Below, one piece after another: positions 24,643-38,585 of a stretch of DNA of 64,000 nucleotides. The stretch covers positions 1 to 64,000 of the forward strand of contig JAUZRX010000051.1 in assembly GCA_030949985.1 (NCBI GenBank). Direction: 5' to 3'. The DNA is from Acidobacteriota bacterium. Lineage in GTDB: Bacteria > Acidobacteriota > Polarisedimenticolia > J045. A program made the translations under genes and the position numbers. Numbering within the stretch: position 1 is the first letter of the stretch; every line of letters starts with the position of its first letter. The notes beneath the pieces are model-generated. The model made no database searches, was not told the origin of the DNA, and was given only the letters and a program-made list of their open reading frames with translations.

Positions 24643-25386
24643 ATGACGCTGAAAACCCTGATCGTCGAAGATGAGCCGCCGGCCCGGAGGCGGCTGAGGC
24701 GGTTGCTCGAGGAGACCGGACGCGTGGACGTGCTGGCCGAGGCGGACACGGTGCGCGACGCCGTGACCAAGATCCGCCATCACGACCCCCAGGTGGTCTT
24801 CCTCGACATCCGGATTCCCGGTGGCGAGGGCTTCGACGTGCTCGAGCGTCTCGAAACCCTGCCGCTGGTGGTCTTCGTCACCGCCTACGACGATTTCGCC
24901 GTGCGCGCCTTCGAACGGGATGCCGTGGACTACCTGGTCAAGCCGGTCACCTCCGATCGCCTGGTGGAAGCCCTGGACCGGGTCGAGCGGCGCCTCGAAA
25001 GGGAGCAGGTCCAGGCGGGGATTCCCGGGATGCTGGCCCAGCGGCCGGGCATGCCGCCGCGGATCGTCGCCCGTCGCCGGGGCCGGATCGTGCTCCTCGC
25101 GCCGGAAGAGGTCAGTCACGTCAGTGCGGACCACACCCTGGTCTTCGCCTGGAAGCAAGGTCACTCCTACCTGGTACCGCGCACCCTGCAGAGCCTGGAA
25201 GAGGAACTCACCCCTTTGGGGTTCCGGCGGACCCACCGCTCGGTGCTGGTCAACCTCGCCGCCATTGCCGCGGTGCGTCCCGCGGAATCCGGCAACTTCC
25301 TGCTCGAACTCAGCGATGGCCAGGGGACTCGTGTCCCTCTCAGCCGCCGCCGGGCCCGGGCGCTGCGAGAGGAGATCGGGTTTTGA
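24643..25386 (+). CDS. LytTR-family response regulator
   Basis: 247 residues. Receiver domain (1-120) with IVEDEPPARRRL, phospho-acceptor VVFLDIRIPGGEGF, VTAYDDFAVRAF and the Lys of YLVKPVTSDRL. The LytTR DNA-binding domain (about 133-247) shows RGRIVLLAPEEVSHVSADHTLVF, FRRTHRSVLVNLAAI and VPLSRRRARALREEI. Regulators of this type bind short direct repeats upstream of targets. It forms an operon with the adjacent histidine kinase. The gene at 25514 is a candidate target by position. Confidence 0.9.
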   Translation: MTLKTLIVEDEPPARRRLRRLLEETGRVDVLAEADTVRDAVTKIRHHDPQVVFLDIRIPGGEGFDVLERLETLPLVVFVTAYDDFAVRAFERDAVDYLVKPVTSDRLVEALDRVERRLEREQVQAGIPGMLAQRPGMPPRIVARRRGRIVLLAPEEVSHVSADHTLVFAWKQGHSYLVPRTLQSLEEELTPLGFRRTHRSVLVNLAAIAAVRPAESGNFLLELSDGQGTRVPLSRRRARALREEIGF

Positions 25387-25513
25387 GCGCTGTTCGCCGT
25401 GCACCGCTCGTCGGGCGGGGACGACCGCTGGTGGTCGAAGCGGCGACCGCTCGCCACTGGGGAGGGGCAGTGGAACGGCCAAGGTGCTTTGTTGGACAAG
25501 GGACTTTCCTCTG

Positions 25514-26758
25514 ATGCGCCATTTTCCGGAGCGAGTGCGACGACCGATGAGAAACCGCCCCGTCATCGCGATGCTGGCGACCGTGCTGGCGGTCCTGGCC
25601 GGCATCTCCGCGGCCGAGGCGGAAGAGTGCGCCGATCGGGTGATGCGGCTGGGGACCACGCGGTTCGTCCAGGCGAGCAGGCTGCTGGTGGAGAGCGACC
25701 GGGTCGATGTGGGCGACACCTACGCTTTTTCCGGTGATACCACGATTCGGGGCGTCGTCGAGGGGGACCTGTCGGTCCTGACCCCCGAGCTCGATATCGG
25801 CGGCAGGGTCAGCGGCGATCTCAACGTTTGCGCCCGCCACGTCGAAATCGACGGTGAGGTGGCCGATGACGTGCGGGTCTTCAGCGAGTCGTTGAGGGTC
25901 GGAGGGCGGGTCGCCGGAGACCTGCTGGCCTTTGTCGGCAGCTTCTATCTCGAGCCCGCCGGCTCCGCACTCGGCGGGCTGTTGATCTACTCGGCCGATG
26001 TCTCGCTCGAAGGCGATGTGGCCGGCCCCGTGCGGATCTACGGGGCCGCCGTCCGTCTTTCGGGGAGCTTCGGTGCCGATGTCTGGGTCGAGTGCGACGA
26101 ACTGACCCTCGAGCCGGGCGTCCATATCGCCGGGGACCTGGTCTACAAGGCGCGCAACACGGTGGCCCCCCCCGCGGGGAGCGTGGACGGCGAGATCCGG
26201 CAGGTGGAGATGACTCCCGAGGAGTTGGCGGAGGAGGACGGCGGCAACTCCTTCCTCGCGTTCTCGCCGGCGGCGCGGGTGACGTTCCACGTCTACCTGG
26301 CCTTCGTCGCCCTGCTCGGCGGCCTGCTCCTGGTGCTTTTCTTCCGCCCCTTCGTGGACGGGTCGCTGGCCCATGCCGGGGGCGCCACGCTGCTCGTTTC
26401 GAGCTTCGGCGTCGGCCTGGTCTGCCTGCTGGTGGCCCTCGTGCTCTCTCTGCTCTGCCTGATCGTCCTGCCGCTGAGCCTGGGACTGCTCTCGGCTCTC
26501 GGTGCGTTGATCTACTTCGGCTCGCTGCTGGGCAAGATGATCGCCGGCCAGATGCTGCTGCGTCCCCTGCTGCGCGGCGAAGGGCACCCGGCGTTGGCCC
26601 TGGTGGTGGGGGTGGGAGCGTTCTTCGTGGTCGATTTCATTCCCGTGGCGGGCGAGCTGCTCTGGCTGTTCTTCACCATCGCCGGCATGGGAGCGGCGTT
26701 GCACCAGCTCCGGTGCTCGATGCCCGCCCCGCAAGCCTCCAGCGCCCCCGCCGAGTAA
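25514..26758 (+). CDS. bactofilin-like/polymer-forming membrane protein
   Basis: 414 residues. Signal peptide (VIAMLATVLAVLAGISAAEA), then about 170 residues of repeated short beta turns of the polymer-forming cytoskeletal type (GVVEGDLSVLTPELDIGGRVSGDLNVCARHVEIDGEVADDVRV...). The C-terminus has four or more membrane helices (ARVTFHVYLAFVALLGGLLLVLFF onwards). Unlike cytosolic bactofilins the beta part would be extracytoplasmic. Start ATG at 25514 has an AAGGGA site; 25547 is an alternative. The 127-bp gap from the LytTR gene leaves room for its own promoter. Confidence 0.72.
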   Translation: MRHFPERVRRPMRNRPVIAMLATVLAVLAGISAAEAEECADRVMRLGTTRFVQASRLLVESDRVDVGDTYAFSGDTTIRGVVEGDLSVLTPELDIGGRVSGDLNVCARHVEIDGEVADDVRVFSESLRVGGRVAGDLLAFVGSFYLEPAGSALGGLLIYSADVSLEGDVAGPVRIYGAAVRLSGSFGADVWVECDELTLEPGVHIAGDLVYKARNTVAPPAGSVDGEIRQVEMTPEELAEEDGGNSFLAFSPAARVTFHVYLAFVALLGGLLLVLFFRPFVDGSLAHAGGATLLVSSFGVGLVCLLVALVLSLLCLIVLPLSLGLLSALGALIYFGSLLGKMIAGQMLLRPLLRGEGHPALALVVGVGAFFVVDFIPVAGELLWLFFTIAGMGAALHQLRCSMPAPQASSAPAE

Positions 26759-26768
26759 TCTTGGGGCC

Positions 26769-28745
<1,977 letters not shown>

Positions 28746-28762
28746 CCCTGCCGGGAGGGGGG

Positions 28763-28781
28763 GCGGGACGGCCCGCTTCTT
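28763..28781 (+). terminator. probable Rho-independent terminator
   Basis: A GCGGG/CCCGC stem with a 4-base loop, followed by TTCTT, lies 18 bp past the ABC-F stop codon. The stem is short and the U-rich tail is interrupted, so confidence is moderate. Confidence 0.4.
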
Positions 28782-28833
28782 GCAACAATGGGGGGCCAAG
28801 CGCGTGTCCGGGAACATTCGCGGCCACCCGGGA

Positions 28834-28863
28834 TTGCCAGCTTCGTCCGCCGCCCCCTAGATT
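28834..28863 (+). promoter_or_regulatory. sigma-70-like promoter candidate
   Basis: TTGCCA at 28834-28839 and TAGATT at 28858-28863 are separated by 18 bp and lie about 100 bp ahead of the beta-barrel gene start. The match is moderate. Confidence 0.3.
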
Positions 28864-28963
28864 GGGTGGTGGAGGAGGGCCCGGGCCGGCGGTCGAGTTC
28901 CGGTGCCGCCCGACCTGTCTCGCCCGGAGCCCGTGGCGACGGACGAGATCGCGGAGATGAGTG

Positions 28964-29623
28964 ATGGAGAGGGTACTTGGAAGGGTCGTGCCGGTCTGCG
29001 TGATGCTGCTGTGGCTGACGATCCCGGCGACGCCGGCGGCCGCCCCCATCGGCCACTGGGCGGCTTCGGCGGGACTGGTCCAGACAGGCGACGGGGATGC
29101 GCCGATCACCGGCTCCCTCGGGTTCGAGGCGACAGGATGGTATGTGCTCTCACCAAAATGGGACCTGGGGTTCCGTCTCCAGTCCCTGGCTTTCAGTTCC
29201 GACGGCATGCAGGAGGGCCCGGCTCCCTGGCTGATGCCCGGTGACGGCACGGTGCTGTTGGGCTCGGCGGTGCTGCGCTGGTACCCCCTGGGTTCGGACC
29301 TGGCCTTTTTTCCCTTCGTGGGCCTGGGGGTCGGCACACCGCTGGCCGACAGTTTCGACGCCGAGCGGCGGGTCGTTCCCGACGTGGGCTTCGTTCTCGA
29401 TACCGACTGGTCGGTCGATTCGGTGGGGTTCAGCGCCGAACTGGGGCTGCGTTTCGACCTGGCCGACGGTCGCTGGTTCGTCGAGGCTCAGACGCGCTAC
29501 CAGGCTCTCGGAGCGACCAGCGAGGGGAGTCTCGAAGTCCCGCCGACGATCCGTCGCACCCGCGAGTGGACGACCAACCTCGACTCCCTCCATTTCGCAA
29601 TTCTCATCGGGTACTACTTCTAG
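28964..29623 (+). CDS. outer-membrane beta-barrel-like protein
   Basis: 219 residues. A signal peptide (about 1-25) is followed by alternating amphipathic strands such as GSLGFEATGWYVLSPKWDLGFRLQSLAF, LGSAVLRWYPL, FFPFVGLGVGTP and VGFSAELGLRFDL. The protein ends in AILIGYYF, where a terminal aromatic is typical of the beta-barrel insertion signal. About eight strands fit the length. ATG 28964 (GGAG seven bases upstream) is preferred over the GTG one codon earlier. Only ten bp separate its stop from the pseudo-subtilase start, so the two are probably co-transcribed. Confidence 0.72.
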   Translation: MERVLGRVVPVCVMLLWLTIPATPAAAPIGHWAASAGLVQTGDGDAPITGSLGFEATGWYVLSPKWDLGFRLQSLAFSSDGMQEGPAPWLMPGDGTVLLGSAVLRWYPLGSDLAFFPFVGLGVGTPLADSFDAERRVVPDVGFVLDTDWSVDSVGFSAELGLRFDLADGRWFVEAQTRYQALGATSEGSLEVPPTIRRTREWTTNLDSLHFAILIGYYF

Positions 29624-29633
29624 GGGATCGACC

Positions 29634-31754
29634 ATGAACACCCGTCTGCAGCCGTCGTTGAGGCTTCTCGTCGCGCTTCTCGCCTGGTTCCTGCTGCTGC
29701 CGCCGGTCTTCGCGGTGGAGCGGAGCGCTTCCCGGCGGGCGGCCGCCCAGGCTCGGCGCGAGGCTCTCGCGCACGTGTCGCCGCGCCGCCAGGTTTCCCC
29801 CCGAGGCCAGGTGCGCACGCGCGGGGTCTCGAACCGGACGCCGCTGGCGGCCAGCCGTCTCGCCCGTCTGGGGGGGCGGCTGGGTCGCGACCCGGGGCAG
29901 GGTTCCGGCGCGCTCCTTTCCGGCCTGCGGCGTCAACGGGTCGTGGCGGCCAAGAACCGCCCGCAGGGCCCGCGGCGGCTTTCCCCCCTGGTCCGGGAGC
30001 TGGTGCAGGCCAGTCGCCGGGGCGCAGCCCTGCCGGCGCACCTGCTGGGGGAGGACACCCTCGAAGTGCTCGACGGCGATCGCATCCGCCTGCAGCTTCT
30101 GCTTCGCCCGGGGGCGGTGGGGCTCGAGCGCGATCTCGAGAGGCTCTCGGCGGAGGTGATTCGCGCGACAGACGCGGTGGTCACCGCCTGGGTGCCCTAC
30201 GACAGCCTGTCCCGGCTCGAGGATGCGGGCACGGTGCAGGCGGCCCGCCTGGCGCGCCGACCCGGGCGTGACAGCGACCGGTCGCGGGTGCTGGCCGCGG
30301 GCGCGGGTAGCCTGGCGGCGGGCAGCGTGGTTTCCGAGGGCGTGCCCCTGAGCGGCGCCGATATCTGGCAGGCCTTCGACAGCTCGGAGTTCGGTGTGGA
30401 GCGGGAGACCCCGGTGACCGTCGCCATCGTCGACGCGGGCTTCTTCGGTTACGCGGACCTTCTCGGTACCGAGTTGCCGGCCGCGGTGACCACCGCCGAC
30501 TTCGCTCCGGCGTGGGACATCGAGGGGTGCCTGGCGGCCGATCCCCTGGCGCCTTGTTTCGCCGCGGGCACCGCGCTGGCGGAGATCGTCACCGACATGA
30601 ACCCGACCGTCGAGCTGATTCTCGTCGCGGTGGATCCGGACAGCTACTCCAGTTTCCAGCAGGCCATCGATTACCTGGCGGGTTCCGGAAGCGGTGGTCC
30701 CCTGGCGCCGATCGTCGTCGGAGGCGCGGTATGGGCCCCCGGCCTCAGTGGAGATGGCTTCGGCAGCGGTCCCTACAGCCGGCTGATCTCTCGACTCACC
30801 GCCCAGGGCGTGACCTGGATCAACGACCTGGGTGACCTCGACTATCTCAGCTTTCTGCTCTACGGCACCGATACCCCGGCCCCGGCCCGGGATCACTGGA
30901 CCGGGCCCTTCGCCGACCAGGTCGACCACCTCTTCCGGGGCCAGTTCGACGCGGACGGCTACATGGACCAGTGGTTGCCGGACCAGGACCCCCAGGCGGG
31001 GGAGACCTGGCTCAACGAGTTCTGCCTCGGTCCGGGAGACTACATCTTTTTCGACCTGGTCTGGGACGATTGGGTCGACGCCGACAATGACGGTATTCCG
31101 GAGACCACCGAGGACTACGCCCTCGATTTCTGGGAACGGGTCGACGGCAAGCTGGTGCTTTTCGACACCTCGTCCTCGCTGCCCGACAACTTCCAGGGAG
31201 GGGAGGAGGGGGACTATCCCTGGGACACCTTCGATCTGTTCAACCCGGGGACCGGGACCGTGTGCTACGAGCTGGCGATCTTCGCCGAGTTCGCCCTGGG
31301 GGACAACCGCTTCCACCTCTACTGGGCGGCGGACAACCTGTCCCTGCCGGGCCAGCTCTCCGCGGGCTTCCAGCCCCCGTTTTCGATCACGGCCGGCAAC
31401 AGGATGATCCCGGCGGACACTCCCGGAGTCGTGGGGGTGGGCACCTCTTCGCCGGCCGATCAGGTCGAACCCTTCTCGCCCTGGGGCCTGGAAGGCGAGG
31501 CCTCGCCGGCGCTCTGCGCTCCGGCCGACGTGAGCACGGCGACCTTCTCCGGCGGTGGTTTCGTCACCTCCTTCGCCGCGGCCCACGTGGCCGGGGCCAC
31601 CAGCCTGCTGATGCAGAAACTCGGCTTCGTCAGCACCACCGAAGCTCTCGAACTGCTCGAGGCCCGGGCGCGGGACATCACGGGGTCGGCGCCGGACGTG
31701 CAGTGCGGTGCGGGCCGGCTGTGCATGTTGACCGGGCGCTGCGCCGCGCCGTAG
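29634..31754 (+). CDS. subtilase (S8)-like secreted protein lacking the catalytic His
   Basis: 706 residues, signal peptide (PSLRLLVALLAWFLLLPPVFA), then an Arg-rich segment that may act as a propeptide. The S8 fold is recognisable from VTVAIVDAGFFGY (catalytic Asp267), AAGTALAEIVTDMNPTVEL (the block that normally begins His-Gly-Thr) and FVTSFAAAHVAGATSLL (Ser646, with Gly-Thr-Ser-x-Ala partly changed). At the His position residue 311 is Ala. Asp and Ser are retained, so this is probably a degenerate or inactive protease, or one with altered chemistry. An internal region from about residue 400 contains an acidic insert (WDDWVDADNDGIPETTED). Co-transcribed with the beta-barrel gene. Confidence 0.85.
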   Translation: MNTRLQPSLRLLVALLAWFLLLPPVFAVERSASRRAAAQARREALAHVSPRRQVSPRGQVRTRGVSNRTPLAASRLARLGGRLGRDPGQGSGALLSGLRRQRVVAAKNRPQGPRRLSPLVRELVQASRRGAALPAHLLGEDTLEVLDGDRIRLQLLLRPGAVGLERDLERLSAEVIRATDAVVTAWVPYDSLSRLEDAGTVQAARLARRPGRDSDRSRVLAAGAGSLAAGSVVSEGVPLSGADIWQAFDSSEFGVERETPVTVAIVDAGFFGYADLLGTELPAAVTTADFAPAWDIEGCLAADPLAPCFAAGTALAEIVTDMNPTVELILVAVDPDSYSSFQQAIDYLAGSGSGGPLAPIVVGGAVWAPGLSGDGFGSGPYSRLISRLTAQGVTWINDLGDLDYLSFLLYGTDTPAPARDHWTGPFADQVDHLFRGQFDADGYMDQWLPDQDPQAGETWLNEFCLGPGDYIFFDLVWDDWVDADNDGIPETTEDYALDFWERVDGKLVLFDTSSSLPDNFQGGEEGDYPWDTFDLFNPGTGTVCYELAIFAEFALGDNRFHLYWAADNLSLPGQLSAGFQPPFSITAGNRMIPADTPGVVGVGTSSPADQVEPFSPWGLEGEASPALCAPADVSTATFSGGGFVTSFAAAHVAGATSLLMQKLGFVSTTEALELLEARARDITGSAPDVQCGAGRLCMLTGRCAAP

Positions 31755-31859
31755 GCGTCACGGCGCCCGGCTCCCCGAGGGTCTTGCCATCGGGTGCCCG
31801 ATCGAAGAAGATGCACGACTTCGACCTGGACCCCGCTGCGCTTCCGGAAGGAGCGGCCG

Positions 31860-33791
31860 ATGGCATTCGGACACCCCAAGGGACTGTTCCCGCTGTTCTT
31901 CACCGAGATGTGGGAGCGGCTGGCCTTCTATACGATGGTCGGCATCCTGCTGCTCTATACGACCGACACGGAGCGGGGCGGCCTGGGCCTTCCGGCCCAG
32001 CAGGGCAACGAGATCTACGGCCTCTACCTGGCCTTCGTCTACTTCACACCGTTCATCGGCGGGATGATCGCGGACCGTTTCCTCGGCTATCGACGGGCGG
32101 TGGCCCTGGGTGGGCTGCTGATGGGCGGCGGCCTGCTGCTGATGGGCGTGCCGGGCTTCACCTACTTCGTGCTCGGCCTGATCGGGCTGATCGTGGGCAA
32201 CGGCTTCTTCAAGCCCAATATCTCGGTGATGGTCGGCAACCTCTACGAGCCGGGTGACCCTCGCCGGGACGCGGGCTTCAACATCTTCTACATGGGCATC
32301 AATATCGGGGCGTTGCTCGCCACGCTGCTGGTGGCGCCCCTGATGCGTAACGTCTTCGGCTGGTTGTGGACCTTTCGCGCGGCAGGCATCGGCGTGCTGT
32401 TGGCGGTGGTCATCCTGGCGACCCAGTGGCGCATCCTGGCCCACGCCGATCGCCAGCCGGAACACAGCGAAGAGGACATGGGTTTCGGCGCGGTGCTGGC
32501 CAAGATCATCCTTCCCGCCTTCGCGGTGGGCCTGGCGGGCTATTTCTTCGCCCGCCAGGTGGGGATGAGCGTCGTCAGCCCCTCCGACTTCGGTTTCCTC
32601 GTCGGTTCGATTCCCGTCTTGCTCTTCTTCGTGGTGCTGGCGCTCAAGGCCAGGGAAGAGGAACGCCCGGGTCTACTCGCGCTGCTGCCGATATTCGTGG
32701 CGGGTGGCGCGTTCTTCATGATCCTCCACCTCAACGGCAGTGCCATGACCCAGTGGGCGCGGGACGAGACCGATCGCCAGGTGGGGGGTGTGACCCGGGC
32801 GCTGACGTGGACCCACCAGGAAGCCCTGCCGCGCTACTACATCAATGCCGCCGAGGACGTGCCGCGGCCGGACCCGCGCACGCTGCTGGTGGTGGAAGAT
32901 GCGCGGGTGGCCGCCATGTACGGTCAGCAGCGCCTCGACGAGGAGGCGGTGCGGGCCATCGCCGCGACGGGGGAAGTGCGGGTCGAAGAGATCGGCGAGG
33001 GCGCTCAGGGCCCCCTGGCCCGTCGCGCCGCCGCGGTCTACGCCTCGGGGACGGTCACGGTGGAGGAAACCGCCGACGCTCACGGGGTCCGTTCGATCTC
33101 GGTGTCGGTGCCCGACGGGGCCGAGGCCCTCCGGCAGGTCGCCTTCGTGCGCGAGGTGGAGGGCCGTCCGATGGCGGTCTTCGTGGTGGATGCCCATACC
33201 TACGAGAGCATCTATGAGGGCTACCGGCGGCTCTACGGCAAGGAGCCGGCGCTCCTGCCTCCCGGCGAGTTTCTGACCGTGGTTTCGCCCGAGGTCTACC
33301 AGTCCTGGAATCCGTTCTTCGTCATCCTGCTCACGCCGGTGGTGGTGGCCTTCTTCGCGTGGCGGGTCAAGCGGGGCAAGCCGGTACCCACGGCCCACAA
33401 GTTGCTCTACGGCATTCTGCTCACGGCGGCGGCGCTGGCTTTCATGGCCCTGGCGGGGTTGATGACCCGGTCGGGAACCGTCAAGGTCTCGGGCTTCTAC
33501 CTGGCGACGTTCTACATGATCGTCACCCTCGGCGAACTCTGCCTGTCTCCCATGGGCCTGTCACTGGTGACCAAGCTGACACCCAGGAGACTGGTCGGCC
33601 TGGCCATGGGGGGCTGGTTCCTGGCCACGGCGATCGGGAACAAGTTTTCCGGCTTCTTCGGTACGATCCAGGGGCTGATGGACCCCCTCTACTTCTTCCT
33701 GCTGTTGTCAGGGGTCTCGGCGCTGGTGGCGCTGTTCCTGTTCTTGGTGCTCTCGCGCCTGGATCGGGCGATTCGCCGCTACGGTGCCTGA
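31860..33791 (+). CDS. POT/PTR-family proton-dependent oligopeptide transporter
   Basis: 643 residues. Characteristic motifs are the ExxER helix (FFTEMWERLAFYTMVGILLLY), GGMIADRFLGYRRAV and the family signature FNIFYMGINIGALLA. About twelve membrane helices can be counted, but between the seventh and eighth lies an unusually long hydrophilic insert of roughly 190 residues (around 315-500). It contains VVEDARVAAMYGQQRLDEEAVRAIAATGEV and is predicted outside the bilayer. Similar inserts occur in some Bacteroidetes and Acidobacteria members of the family. Start at ATG 31860 with GGAAGGAG. Stops nine bp from the converging bipA gene. Confidence 0.85.
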   Translation: MAFGHPKGLFPLFFTEMWERLAFYTMVGILLLYTTDTERGGLGLPAQQGNEIYGLYLAFVYFTPFIGGMIADRFLGYRRAVALGGLLMGGGLLLMGVPGFTYFVLGLIGLIVGNGFFKPNISVMVGNLYEPGDPRRDAGFNIFYMGINIGALLATLLVAPLMRNVFGWLWTFRAAGIGVLLAVVILATQWRILAHADRQPEHSEEDMGFGAVLAKIILPAFAVGLAGYFFARQVGMSVVSPSDFGFLVGSIPVLLFFVVLALKAREEERPGLLALLPIFVAGGAFFMILHLNGSAMTQWARDETDRQVGGVTRALTWTHQEALPRYYINAAEDVPRPDPRTLLVVEDARVAAMYGQQRLDEEAVRAIAATGEVRVEEIGEGAQGPLARRAAAVYASGTVTVEETADAHGVRSISVSVPDGAEALRQVAFVREVEGRPMAVFVVDAHTYESIYEGYRRLYGKEPALLPPGEFLTVVSPEVYQSWNPFFVILLTPVVVAFFAWRVKRGKPVPTAHKLLYGILLTAAALAFMALAGLMTRSGTVKVSGFYLATFYMIVTLGELCLSPMGLSLVTKLTPRRLVGLAMGGWFLATAIGNKFSGFFGTIQGLMDPLYFFLLLSGVSALVALFLFLVLSRLDRAIRRYGA

Positions 33792-36056: not shown

Positions 36057-36131
36057 CCGGGGATCGGCCGGACGGCCGCGGGCGTGCCCTTGAACGTATA
36101 CTCGCGGCTGGCTTTGACAGAGGAGATCCCC

Positions 36132-38585
36132 ATGGTCCGGAGTCTGGGCGGTCGCTGCTGGTGGTGGGTGTGGGGGGTGTTGGTGCTGTTCGGCGGAAGC
36201 GCCGCCGCCGAGGGGCCGGTCTGGCGGCTGCTGGTGGAGGCGGATGCGGCCGGCCGGGATCGGCTCTCGGCCATGGGGTACGACATCGCGGGCCACGATC
36301 TGGAGCGCGACCGCGTCGAGGTGATCACCGATGAACGGGGGCTTCGACGGTTGGTGGAGCGGGGCTTTCACCTGGTGCTGATCGAGCATCGTCCGGCTCC
36401 CCGGCCCCTCGAGCAGGGCAGTGGCGGCCGGGCGGATCTCGACGGTCCCCTGCCCGATGACCGCTACCACGACCCCGCCGAGGTGCAGGCCTTTCTCGAA
36501 ACCGTCGCCGCCGACCACCCGGCGATCACGCGCCTGGTCTCGCTGGGCCAGAGCGTGGAGGGGCGGACCCTTTGGGGGCTGATGATTTCGGACAACGCGG
36601 ACCGGGACGAGGACGAGCTGGCGATTCTTTTCAACGCCGCTCATCACGCCCGCGAGGTGATGACCCCCGAAGTGGTCATGGACACCATCGATCAACTCAC
36701 CGACAACTACGGTACGGATCCCCGGATCACGTCGATGGTCGATACCTACCAGATCTGGTGCGTTCCGATGGTCAATCCCGATGGTGTGGCCCGGGTCCAC
36801 GAGGTGGACGACAACTGGCGCAAGAATCTGCGGGACAACGATGGCAACGGCGCGATCGACAGCCAGGACGGCGTGGATCTCAACCGCAACTACCAGTGGG
36901 GCTGGGGCGGTCAATGCCGGGGGTCGTCGAGTCTCTTCGCTTCGGCCACCTATCGTGGCCCCCGGGAGCTTTCCGAGCCCGAAAGCCAGGCCCTGATCGA
37001 GTGGGGCCGCACCTGGCGGCCGGTTTTCGACGTGGAGTACCACGCCTACGGGGAAGACGTCTTTTACGCCCTGTCCTGCGATCCCTCGCTCTCGCCGACG
37101 CTGAGCACGATCCCGGGCGGCGATCCCTCCATCAGCCGGGTCATCGCCGAGGACTACGCGGCGCGCCTGGTGCAGGCGGACGGCGGGCAGGGTTTCAGCG
37201 CCGCTCCCTACGGCTCGCGGGTCGACGGCACCGGGCGGGACAACCAGTACCGGGAAAACGGTTCGATCGCCTTCGTCACCGAGGTCAACAACGCGGCGGA
37301 AGGAGGTTTCCGGCCCGACTACGGCACCTATCGCGACGCCACGGTGCAGGGGCAGCGCCCCGGATGGAAGTGGTTGATCGAGCGCATGGGAGGGCCCGCC
37401 GTCGGCGGCCATGTCACCGACGCACTGACCGGCCGGCCGCTCGAGGCGGAGATCAGCCTCGACGAGATGAATCTTCCCGACGGGCGCCAGCCCACCAGCC
37501 GGGCGGATACCGGTCGCTTTCACCTGATCGTCGTGCCGGGCGACTACACCCTCCGGGTGCGGGCGCCGGGATACGCCGAGGCGGTGATTCCCGTGACCGT
37601 CGCCGATGCTCCCTACGTGCCCCTGGGCGTCGCTCTCGAGCCGGCCGGAGCGAACGTGCTGGCGCGCGAAGACTTCGAGGATCCGGCCACGGCTCTCGCC
37701 TGGACCTCCGGTTTCCCCGGTGATACCGCCACCGACGGCCGGTGGCAGTGGGGCGAGCCCCAGGGCACCCACGACGGGGACGCCGTCTTCGGCGACCTGG
37801 AATTCGGCGCGCCCCGATTCGACGGCACACCGGGGCGGGGCGTCAACGCGTGGGTCACGGGCAACCAGGCGGCGGCCGGCTTCACGTCCGACGACGTGGA
37901 CGGAGGCGTGACGAGCCTGGTCTCGCCCTCCTACGACCTCTCCGGCTGGTACGGGGTGCGGGTGGGCTGGCGCCGGTGGTTCCGCAAGGATGCGGCGGAT
38001 CCCGTCGATCGCTTCGACCTGGAGGTCTCCACCGACGGCGGGGCGAGTTGGCTCCTGCTCGACTCGCTGCGGACGACCAGCGCCACGGCCGACGCGGCGC
38101 CCGCCTGGACGCGAACGGAAGTCTTGCTCGACGCGGTGGCGCAACCCGGGGCCGATACGCGCTTCCGCTTCCGGGTCGCCGACGACGGCGCGGAAAACGT
38201 GGTGGAGGGCGCGATCGACGATTTCCTGCTGCTGGGCTTCGACCTGCAAGGCCAGGGGGAGGTGAGCGGAGTCCGGCTGGTGGACACGGTCGAAACCGTG
38301 GTCGAATGGGATGCCGTGCCCGGAGGCGAAGGGGCTGTCTACGACGTGGTGCGGGGGGATGTCGCGTCCCTGGGGGCGGACGCGTCGGGGGTCGACCTGG
38401 GCCCGCTCCTGTGTATCGAGGACGACTCCGTCGATACGAGCACCGCCGATCACCCGGACGGCGACTCGCCTTCGGCGGGGGCGGGTTTCTTCTACCTGGT
38501 GCGCTTCGAACTGGGTCTCAGCCGCGGGGGTTGGGGATCGGGAAGCGGGGGCGGGACCCGCAGCGGCAGCGGAGGCTGTCCGTAG
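36132..38585 (+). CDS. secreted M14 zinc carboxypeptidase (carboxypeptidase T-like) with accessory domains
   Basis: 817 residues. Signal peptide (about 1-27), propeptide (to about 110) and an M14 domain follow. Zn ligands are His172 and Glu175 (in HHAREVM) and His304 (EYHAYGE), with catalytic Glu384 (FVTEVNN) and NPDG and VDLNRNYQWGWGG substrate loops, so it is complete and probably active. After that comes a carboxypeptidase-regulatory-like beta domain (VGGHVTDALTGRPLEAEISL), then a jelly-roll-like domain (EDFEDPATALAWTSG...). The final domain of about 90 residues ends in Cys-Pro and is homologous to that on the metallopeptidase at 6193-8028. Likely cell-surface or secreted. GGAGATCCCC precedes ATG 36132. 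Confidence 0.9.
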   Translation: MVRSLGGRCWWWVWGVLVLFGGSAAAEGPVWRLLVEADAAGRDRLSAMGYDIAGHDLERDRVEVITDERGLRRLVERGFHLVLIEHRPAPRPLEQGSGGRADLDGPLPDDRYHDPAEVQAFLETVAADHPAITRLVSLGQSVEGRTLWGLMISDNADRDEDELAILFNAAHHAREVMTPEVVMDTIDQLTDNYGTDPRITSMVDTYQIWCVPMVNPDGVARVHEVDDNWRKNLRDNDGNGAIDSQDGVDLNRNYQWGWGGQCRGSSSLFASATYRGPRELSEPESQALIEWGRTWRPVFDVEYHAYGEDVFYALSCDPSLSPTLSTIPGGDPSISRVIAEDYAARLVQADGGQGFSAAPYGSRVDGTGRDNQYRENGSIAFVTEVNNAAEGGFRPDYGTYRDATVQGQRPGWKWLIERMGGPAVGGHVTDALTGRPLEAEISLDEMNLPDGRQPTSRADTGRFHLIVVPGDYTLRVRAPGYAEAVIPVTVADAPYVPLGVALEPAGANVLAREDFEDPATALAWTSGFPGDTATDGRWQWGEPQGTHDGDAVFGDLEFGAPRFDGTPGRGVNAWVTGNQAAAGFTSDDVDGGVTSLVSPSYDLSGWYGVRVGWRRWFRKDAADPVDRFDLEVSTDGGASWLLLDSLRTTSATADAAPAWTRTEVLLDAVAQPGADTRFRFRVADDGAENVVEGAIDDFLLLGFDLQGQGEVSGVRLVDTVETVVEWDAVPGGEGAVYDVVRGDVASLGADASGVDLGPLLCIEDDSVDTSTADHPDGDSPSAGAGFFYLVRFELGLSRGGWGSGSGGGTRSGSGGCP

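Follow-up and report, generated by a model that had tools for sequence, protein, structure and literature searches.

A conserved clade of pseudo-subtilases encoded beside an outer-membrane barrel gene in one family of Acidobacteriota

Introduction

Does a gene that reads as a subtilase, with an alanine at the position of the catalytic histidine, still encode a protease, or has its product been turned to another use? The question is raised by a locus on contig JAUZRX010000051.1 of an Acidobacteriota bacterium, of which we analysed positions 1 to 64,000 (the window). An initial annotation, made from the sequence alone, had noted the apparent loss of His and the start of the gene ten bp after a small barrel gene, and had suggested a linked function, as a scaffold or ligand-binding protein rather than a protease. 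To our knowledge, the surface biology of Acidobacteriota is little known. Few bacterial pseudo-subtilases have been described with their history traced. Among the literature matches listed, the Csp proteins are the sole bacterial group, and no title concerned a barrel-subtilase pair or a dead subtilase in Acidobacteriota.

Results and discussion

The protein is an S8 subtilase homologue by sequence family that has lost two residues of the active site and kept two. The Pfam family PF00082 (Peptidase_S8) matched only the C-terminal half (residues 587-694; 27.5 bits, cut-off 21.8). Profiles built solely from relatives with intact catalytic motifs (active-only profiles) matched both halves, with 70.1 bits for the half that carries Asp, His and Asn and 67.5 bits for the half that carries Ser. 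They set Ala311 on the His column, where the expected His-Gly-Thr block reads Ala310-Ala311-Gly-Thr. Asp267, Ala311 and Ser646 stand at the annotated positions. The annotation missed a second loss: the oxyanion Asn, found in the AGN motif of relatives, is Asp401 in the window protein (INDLGD). Near the catalytic Ser the sequence is VTSFAAAHV, which no longer has a Gly ahead of Thr-Ser or the Pro of the PHV motif. Measured against an active S8 peptidase, the catalytic Asp and Ser are present and the catalytic His and oxyanion Asn are absent. The Ala311 codon would need more than two base changes to become any His codon, so a single-base error cannot explain the Ala. An inserted stretch lies between the Asp401 and Ser646 blocks in the alignment; active relatives also have a stretch inserted before the Ser block, but it is shorter. 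The coordinates of these features are given in Table 1.

Table 1. Features of the barrel and pseudo-subtilase locus (window coordinates).
Feature	Coordinates	Strand	Basis or remark
Sigma-70-like promoter match ahead of the barrel gene	28834..28863	+	Sole match in 28600-32000; weak evidence
Small outer-membrane beta-barrel gene, 220 aa, OmpW/OprG-like	28961..29623	+	Start codon GTG (28961) or ATG (28964); N-terminus signal-like; C-terminal residues Tyr-Tyr-Phe
Pseudo-subtilase gene, 706 aa	29634..31754	+	Open reading frame translation; Peptidase_S8 and active-only profile matches
Putative signal peptide, residues 1-27	29634..29714	+	Hydrophobic stretch ending VFA, judged by eye
Arginine-rich stretch, about residues 28-140	29715..30053	+	Net-charge count
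Prodomain-like region, about residues 141-215	30054..30278	+	Low-confidence model, in which residues 105-207 correspond to the N-terminal region of 3afg
Asp267 codon, catalytic Asp position, kept	30432..30434	+	Alignment
Cys299 to Cys308, two clade-specific cysteines just N-terminal of the lost-His position	30528..30557	+	Alignment
Ala311 codon (GCG), catalytic His position	30564..30566	+	Sequence, alignment, profiles
Asp401 codon, oxyanion Asn position	30834..30836	+	Alignment
Inserted beta-rich stretch, about residues 411-585	30864..31388	+	Alignment; beta nature from a low-confidence model
Ser646 codon, catalytic Ser position, kept	31569..31571	+	Alignment

The loss is shared by all five members of a clade in the window's own GTDB family. 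We searched 100 genomes of relatives, 41 of the class and 396 of the phylum, and read the catalytic motifs at 32 of 37 subtilase places (G104:C247, G123:C484, G123:C582, G195:C258 and G266:C9 were left out). Proteins without the catalytic His came from five of the 12 genomes of the family and from four genera; we call these five the dead clade. Their His column reads A, T, T, D and D in five assemblies, which answers the annotation's question of whether orthologues also lack the His. The oxyanion Asn column is Asp in 5/5, and the catalytic Asp and Ser are retained in 5/5. The other relatives in the phylum, some of which are near copies of one another (e.g. L009-L011 and L087-L088), have Asp, His and Asn in 27/27 and Ser in 26/26, one contig ending before the Ser. 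A scan of genome contigs matched three loci, all in Acidobacteria MAG records.

The tree, computed with the ten catalytic-motif columns removed, placed the five proteins in one clade (100/100) on a stem of 1.72 changes per column. The clade is nested in a supported group of 24 rows (100/99) whose remaining rows are active; the tree does not order its nearest relatives within that group. Read from the alignment and the tree, the loss of His and Asn is common to the whole dead clade, and it is old and double.

The gene is conserved by selection. In a single pairwise comparison of the window with a congener, the pseudo-subtilase had a dN/dS of 0.147, which falls inside the span of 0.056 to 0.179 given by five further genes of the locus. 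The most constrained parts were the insert (0.059) and the Ser block (0.060), followed by the first half of the core (0.114); the N-terminal stretch (0.31), the prodomain (0.35) and the signal peptide (0.52) gave higher values. By this measure the gene is under purifying selection and has been rebuilt rather than decayed. Loss of catalytic motifs is what a decaying gene, a sequencing error or an assembly artefact might present, but the concordance of five assemblies in four genera, the dN/dS of about 0.15 and the full-length open frame refute such an origin, which we regard as hardly credible. The family holds a real, conserved clade of pseudo-subtilases, as judged from these comparisons, whose function we infer.

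Features besides the catalytic positions also set the dead clade apart. The window protein has eight cysteines in total, all of them invariant in the five members. Among the 27 active relatives, five of the same eight columns have no Cys in any row, two have Cys in two rows each, and position 703 has Cys in six. Ahead of the prodomain, the dead clade has a longer stretch, richer in arginine, than the seven active relatives measured, and the net charge from residue 26 to the prodomain was +11 to +17 in four dead-clade proteins versus +1 to +5 in those seven. In sum, the pseudo-subtilase resembles S8 subtilases (PF00082) and its active Acidobacteriota relatives in its sequence blocks, prodomain region, pre-Ser insert and Asp and Ser positions, and differs from the active relatives in lacking the catalytic His and oxyanion Asn, in its eight invariant cysteines and in its longer arginine-rich N-terminal stretch.

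No other histidine stands out in the alignment as a substitute for the one lost. The annotation had thought a residual activity with another base conceivable, and the pseudo-subtilase might indeed keep some residual or altered catalysis, through Ser646 and another general base or through substrate-assisted chemistry: Ser646, Asp267 and His561 are invariant in the dead clade, and retention of Ser and Asp leaves weak or altered chemistry possible. However, the oxyanion Asn is gone as well, as are the Gly and Pro near the Ser, and where the His was lost the clade members differ, with A, T or D. Three histidines are invariant in the dead clade (421, 651 and 561). His421 and His651 are common to nearly all active relatives, which have their own catalytic His, and His561 lies within the insert, at a column that in relatives is mostly Glu and is His in three. 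The alignment gives an alternative catalytic His no support, and we consider residual catalysis very unlikely.

The barrel gene is a consistent neighbour of the pseudo-subtilase gene in the family. Its stop codon closes at 29623 and the ATG of the pseudo-subtilase begins at 29634, the 10-bp gap that the annotation had reported. A scan of 28600-32000 for sigma-70-like promoters, which is weak evidence, gave no match between the two genes. A barrel gene lies immediately upstream of the pseudo-subtilase in all four family loci that have sequence there, and the family barrels are 83, 50 and 37% identical to that of the window. In the fifth genome one contig stops just past the barrel gene, which follows an ABC-F gene, and another contig starts inside the subtilase gene. 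Genes downstream of the pseudo-subtilase vary: a POT transporter in the window's genus, an M14 carboxypeptidase in G003, and neither in G008. In the window, a POT-family peptide transporter (31869-33788) and an M14 zinc carboxypeptidase (36084-38585) lie downstream; in G003 the carboxypeptidase match is directly 3' of the pseudo-subtilase gene.

The two genes also co-occur, as the annotation had proposed to check. Both were found in five of the 12 family genomes and neither in the other seven, where absence means no subtilase at E 1e-15 and, with the family-barrel profile, only two marginal matches (0.004 and 0.009). If the genes were independent, such a 5-0-0-7 table would arise by chance once in 792 (Fisher, by hand), for genomes that are related and in some cases incomplete. 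A broader OmpW-type profile found weaker barrels in four of the seven pair-less genomes (G005, G006, G009 and G010; E 7.3e-14 to 2.4e-9).

Similar pairs recur beside active relatives in the phylum. At 22 of the 37 subtilase places a barrel was encoded on the same strand, no more than 622 bp separating the two matched stretches. The barrel lies upstream in 19 cases and downstream in three; four are those of the window's family, and 18 are beside active relatives, with one G045 barrel serving two places. Because the seed barrels were chosen for their adjacency to a subtilase, 22/37 is inflated as a test. The count took the 37 best barrel rows (E up to 2e-18); by eye, none of the weaker rows shares a contig with a subtilase place that lacks a barrel. 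The adjacent barrels of G104:C247 and G123:C484 are absent from the barrel profile. In a hold-out test of that profile, the best member of each group scored 36 to 185 bits and the weakest family member 14.6, against at most 9.2 for other open frames. Pairing as a trait special to the dead protein is rejected: the link that the annotation saw is real and conserved in the family, but many active relatives are paired too.

Among the unpaired places are contig ends, L007 and L010. So are L089-L096, a separate set of distant subtilases, most of them longer, for which no barrel was found, L091 having almost no upstream sequence. No barrel was found beside the L007 subtilase or in the 1.5-kb flanks of L010, though the near relatives of L010, L009 (G076) and L011 (G050), have a barrel downstream, not upstream, of an active subtilase. 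Conversely, the barrel L117 is closely related to a paired one, and its flanks held no subtilase. In counting barrel changes along the tree, we scored L010, L006, L022, L023 and L091 as unknown. On contig C4 of G045 (152635-156609; L022, L028), two tandem active subtilases have one barrel between them.

The paired barrels resemble OmpW-type proteins and do not form one clade in the tree. A profile of 19 barrels, including that of the window, matches OprG, AlkL and OmpW structures (OprG positions 18-210 of 210; best E 1.1e-13), and Pfam OMP_b-brl matches 15 of the 19. The window barrel itself is divergent from the OmpW/OprG/AlkL group, with no Pfam match at E 0.01 (Autotransporter fell below threshold, E 0.014), and it is encoded beside a subtilase. 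In the barrel tree the family's barrels form one clade (100/100) that stands no nearer the paired barrels than the unpaired OmpW-like ones. A profile made from paired barrels outside the family gave the five family barrels 14.4 to 32.2 bits and gave 12 of 14 unpaired OmpW-like barrels more (33.7 to 159.3 bits), most of the latter having been preselected as strong profile matches. A single inherited barrel for all pairs is not supported: a tree joining all 20 paired and family barrels against the 14 unpaired ones was rejected (p-AU 1.2e-98, with long branches). From the profile scores and the tree, the family's barrel may have been recruited separately. Since the tree does not support a single barrel lineage that tracks the subtilase, what we claim is recurrence of the pairing, not descent of one pair; the findings point to a recurring barrel-subtilase gene pair in Acidobacteriota.

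Adjacency of the two genes is no proof that their products interact, and the barrel could be merely an upstream neighbour. Four of the five pair genomes retain an ABC-F gene, too, upstream of the barrel, and the fifth gave a match to a C-terminal fragment, so neighbours can persist through local synteny alone; in addition, the barrels of active pairs and of the dead clade are not one clade, and some relatives have no adjoining barrel. We nevertheless judge a neighbour without interaction to be quite unlikely, given the 10-bp spacing, a linkage kept while downstream genes change, and the recurrence of like pairing beside active relatives (18 of the 37 places). The ABC-F gene, moreover, was found in 11 of the 12 family genomes, including six of the seven in which both members of the pair are missing; by eye, no barrel lay downstream of ABC-F in three pair-less genomes.

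Structure models added little. AlphaFold2, run on four-sequence alignments, modelled the pseudo-subtilase at a mean pLDDT of 42.2 and the barrel at 47.8, the latter with nine long strands and a hairpin, where an OmpW/OprG/AlkL barrel would have eight strands. The best-modelled part of the pseudo-subtilase (about residues 120-200) falls within a stretch that matched the N-terminal part of ProN-Tk-SP (3afg) at Z 8.0, tied with an unrelated row, and that of CspB (4i0w) at Z 6.0; this prodomain-like likeness is suggestive only. Foldseek also ranked the subtilase 3afg first (E 1.6e-5), but with an rmsd of 21.9, and the VIA rows were mostly common beta sandwiches and alpha/beta folds. With models this poor, any ligand site, disulfide or barrel contact is a guess.

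We compared the window proteins with two further known systems. Subtilase autotransporters (e.g. EprS, NF051851) likewise combine a subtilase with an outer-membrane barrel, with passenger and barrel in one chain. The window pair, unlike these, is two genes separated by a stop and the 10-bp gap, its barrel has about 220 aa, and the pseudo-subtilase scored 16.4 bits against NF051851 (cut-off 1700).

The second comparison is with the Csp proteins, which are soluble spore proteins of Clostridia, whereas the window protein is from Acidobacteriota and has an adjoining barrel gene; we know of no barrel partner for the Csp proteins. According to PMC6636752, C. difficile CspC is a dead subtilase whose prodomain stays uncleaved and whose subtilase domain carries a jelly-roll insertion; it acts in signalling, and its catalytic His is Thr and its Ser is Gly485, with Asp kept; the window protein, by contrast, has Ser646. 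The window protein is, like CspC and CspA, a dead subtilase, and the likeness may extend to a prodomain and an inserted beta domain, about 130 aa long in Csp (PMC6636752, PMC12880746). The same order may hold in the window protein, where the insert is placed between the Asn and Ser blocks by alignment and the prodomain by the tied 3afg match of the low-confidence model. The window protein had no match to NF040809 (Csp) at E up to 1; six of the 12 proteins of alignment A3 matched it at E up to 0.001 (best 2.3e-9), at far fewer bits, not set against the cut-off. By analogy, CspC is the closest precedent we found for signalling by a protein of this layout; the likeness does not make the window protein a Csp.

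The pseudo-subtilase might instead regulate an active protease of the same cell, as a decoy or heterodimer partner, as pseudoenzymes often do. In C. difficile the pseudo-subtilases CspA and CspC work with the protease CspB, as described in PMC12880746, and the window's own genome has 19 PF00082 matches, the pseudo-subtilase included. Against this, that genome holds no second member of the subfamily (only a 21.5-bit match; one match at E 1e-30), and no other S8 was found among the seven neighbouring proteins scanned, though one is the M14 carboxypeptidase; we hold such a role to be unlikely. With 19 matches in 3.7 Mb, many in long open frames, the organism is protease-rich. Active-only profiles placed His-Gly on the His column in seven of the 18 other matches; two have an HGSH motif out of register, and nine were not resolved there. 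A regular-expression survey of the 19 was set aside as too crude.

The reading we prefer is that the window gene encodes a dead, exported S8 subtilase, made with the OmpW-like barrel, that works with it as a binding, receptor or scaffold subunit at the surface or in the periplasm; we put this at a little better than even (roughly 55%). The His and Asn are lost throughout the clade, the family blocks with Asp and Ser are retained, eight cysteines are invariant, the gene is under purifying selection and the barrel is linked. A non-proteolytic role, as the annotation had favoured, is the best reading of this record, and binding to something at the cell surface, in place of cutting it, is the protein's probable function. 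On this model the pseudo-subtilase would be exported, as its signal-like N-terminus suggests, and would not cut protein; its prodomain would stay attached, self-cleavage being impossible; the eight cysteines could form up to four stabilising disulfides; and the pseudo-subtilase and barrel would act together, in contact, with the groove or the inserted beta stretch binding a peptide or other ligand.

A broader proposal is tentative, with the odds against it: that Acidobacteriota use a widespread, undescribed two-gene unit in which a secreted subtilase carrying a beta insert is paired with a small OmpW-type barrel, and that in one family the protease became a receptor stabilised by disulfides. 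The former active site of this receptor (Asp267, Asp401 and Ser646) would bind a ligand, possibly a peptide or cation, and pass the ligand or a signal to the barrel. Because the dead clade has active relatives with a similar gene neighbour, a change from protease to binding protein can be compared directly.

Elsewhere in the window, a frame with a bactofilin match (24821-26758) has a start that overlaps a LytTR response regulator gene; its true start is probably downstream.
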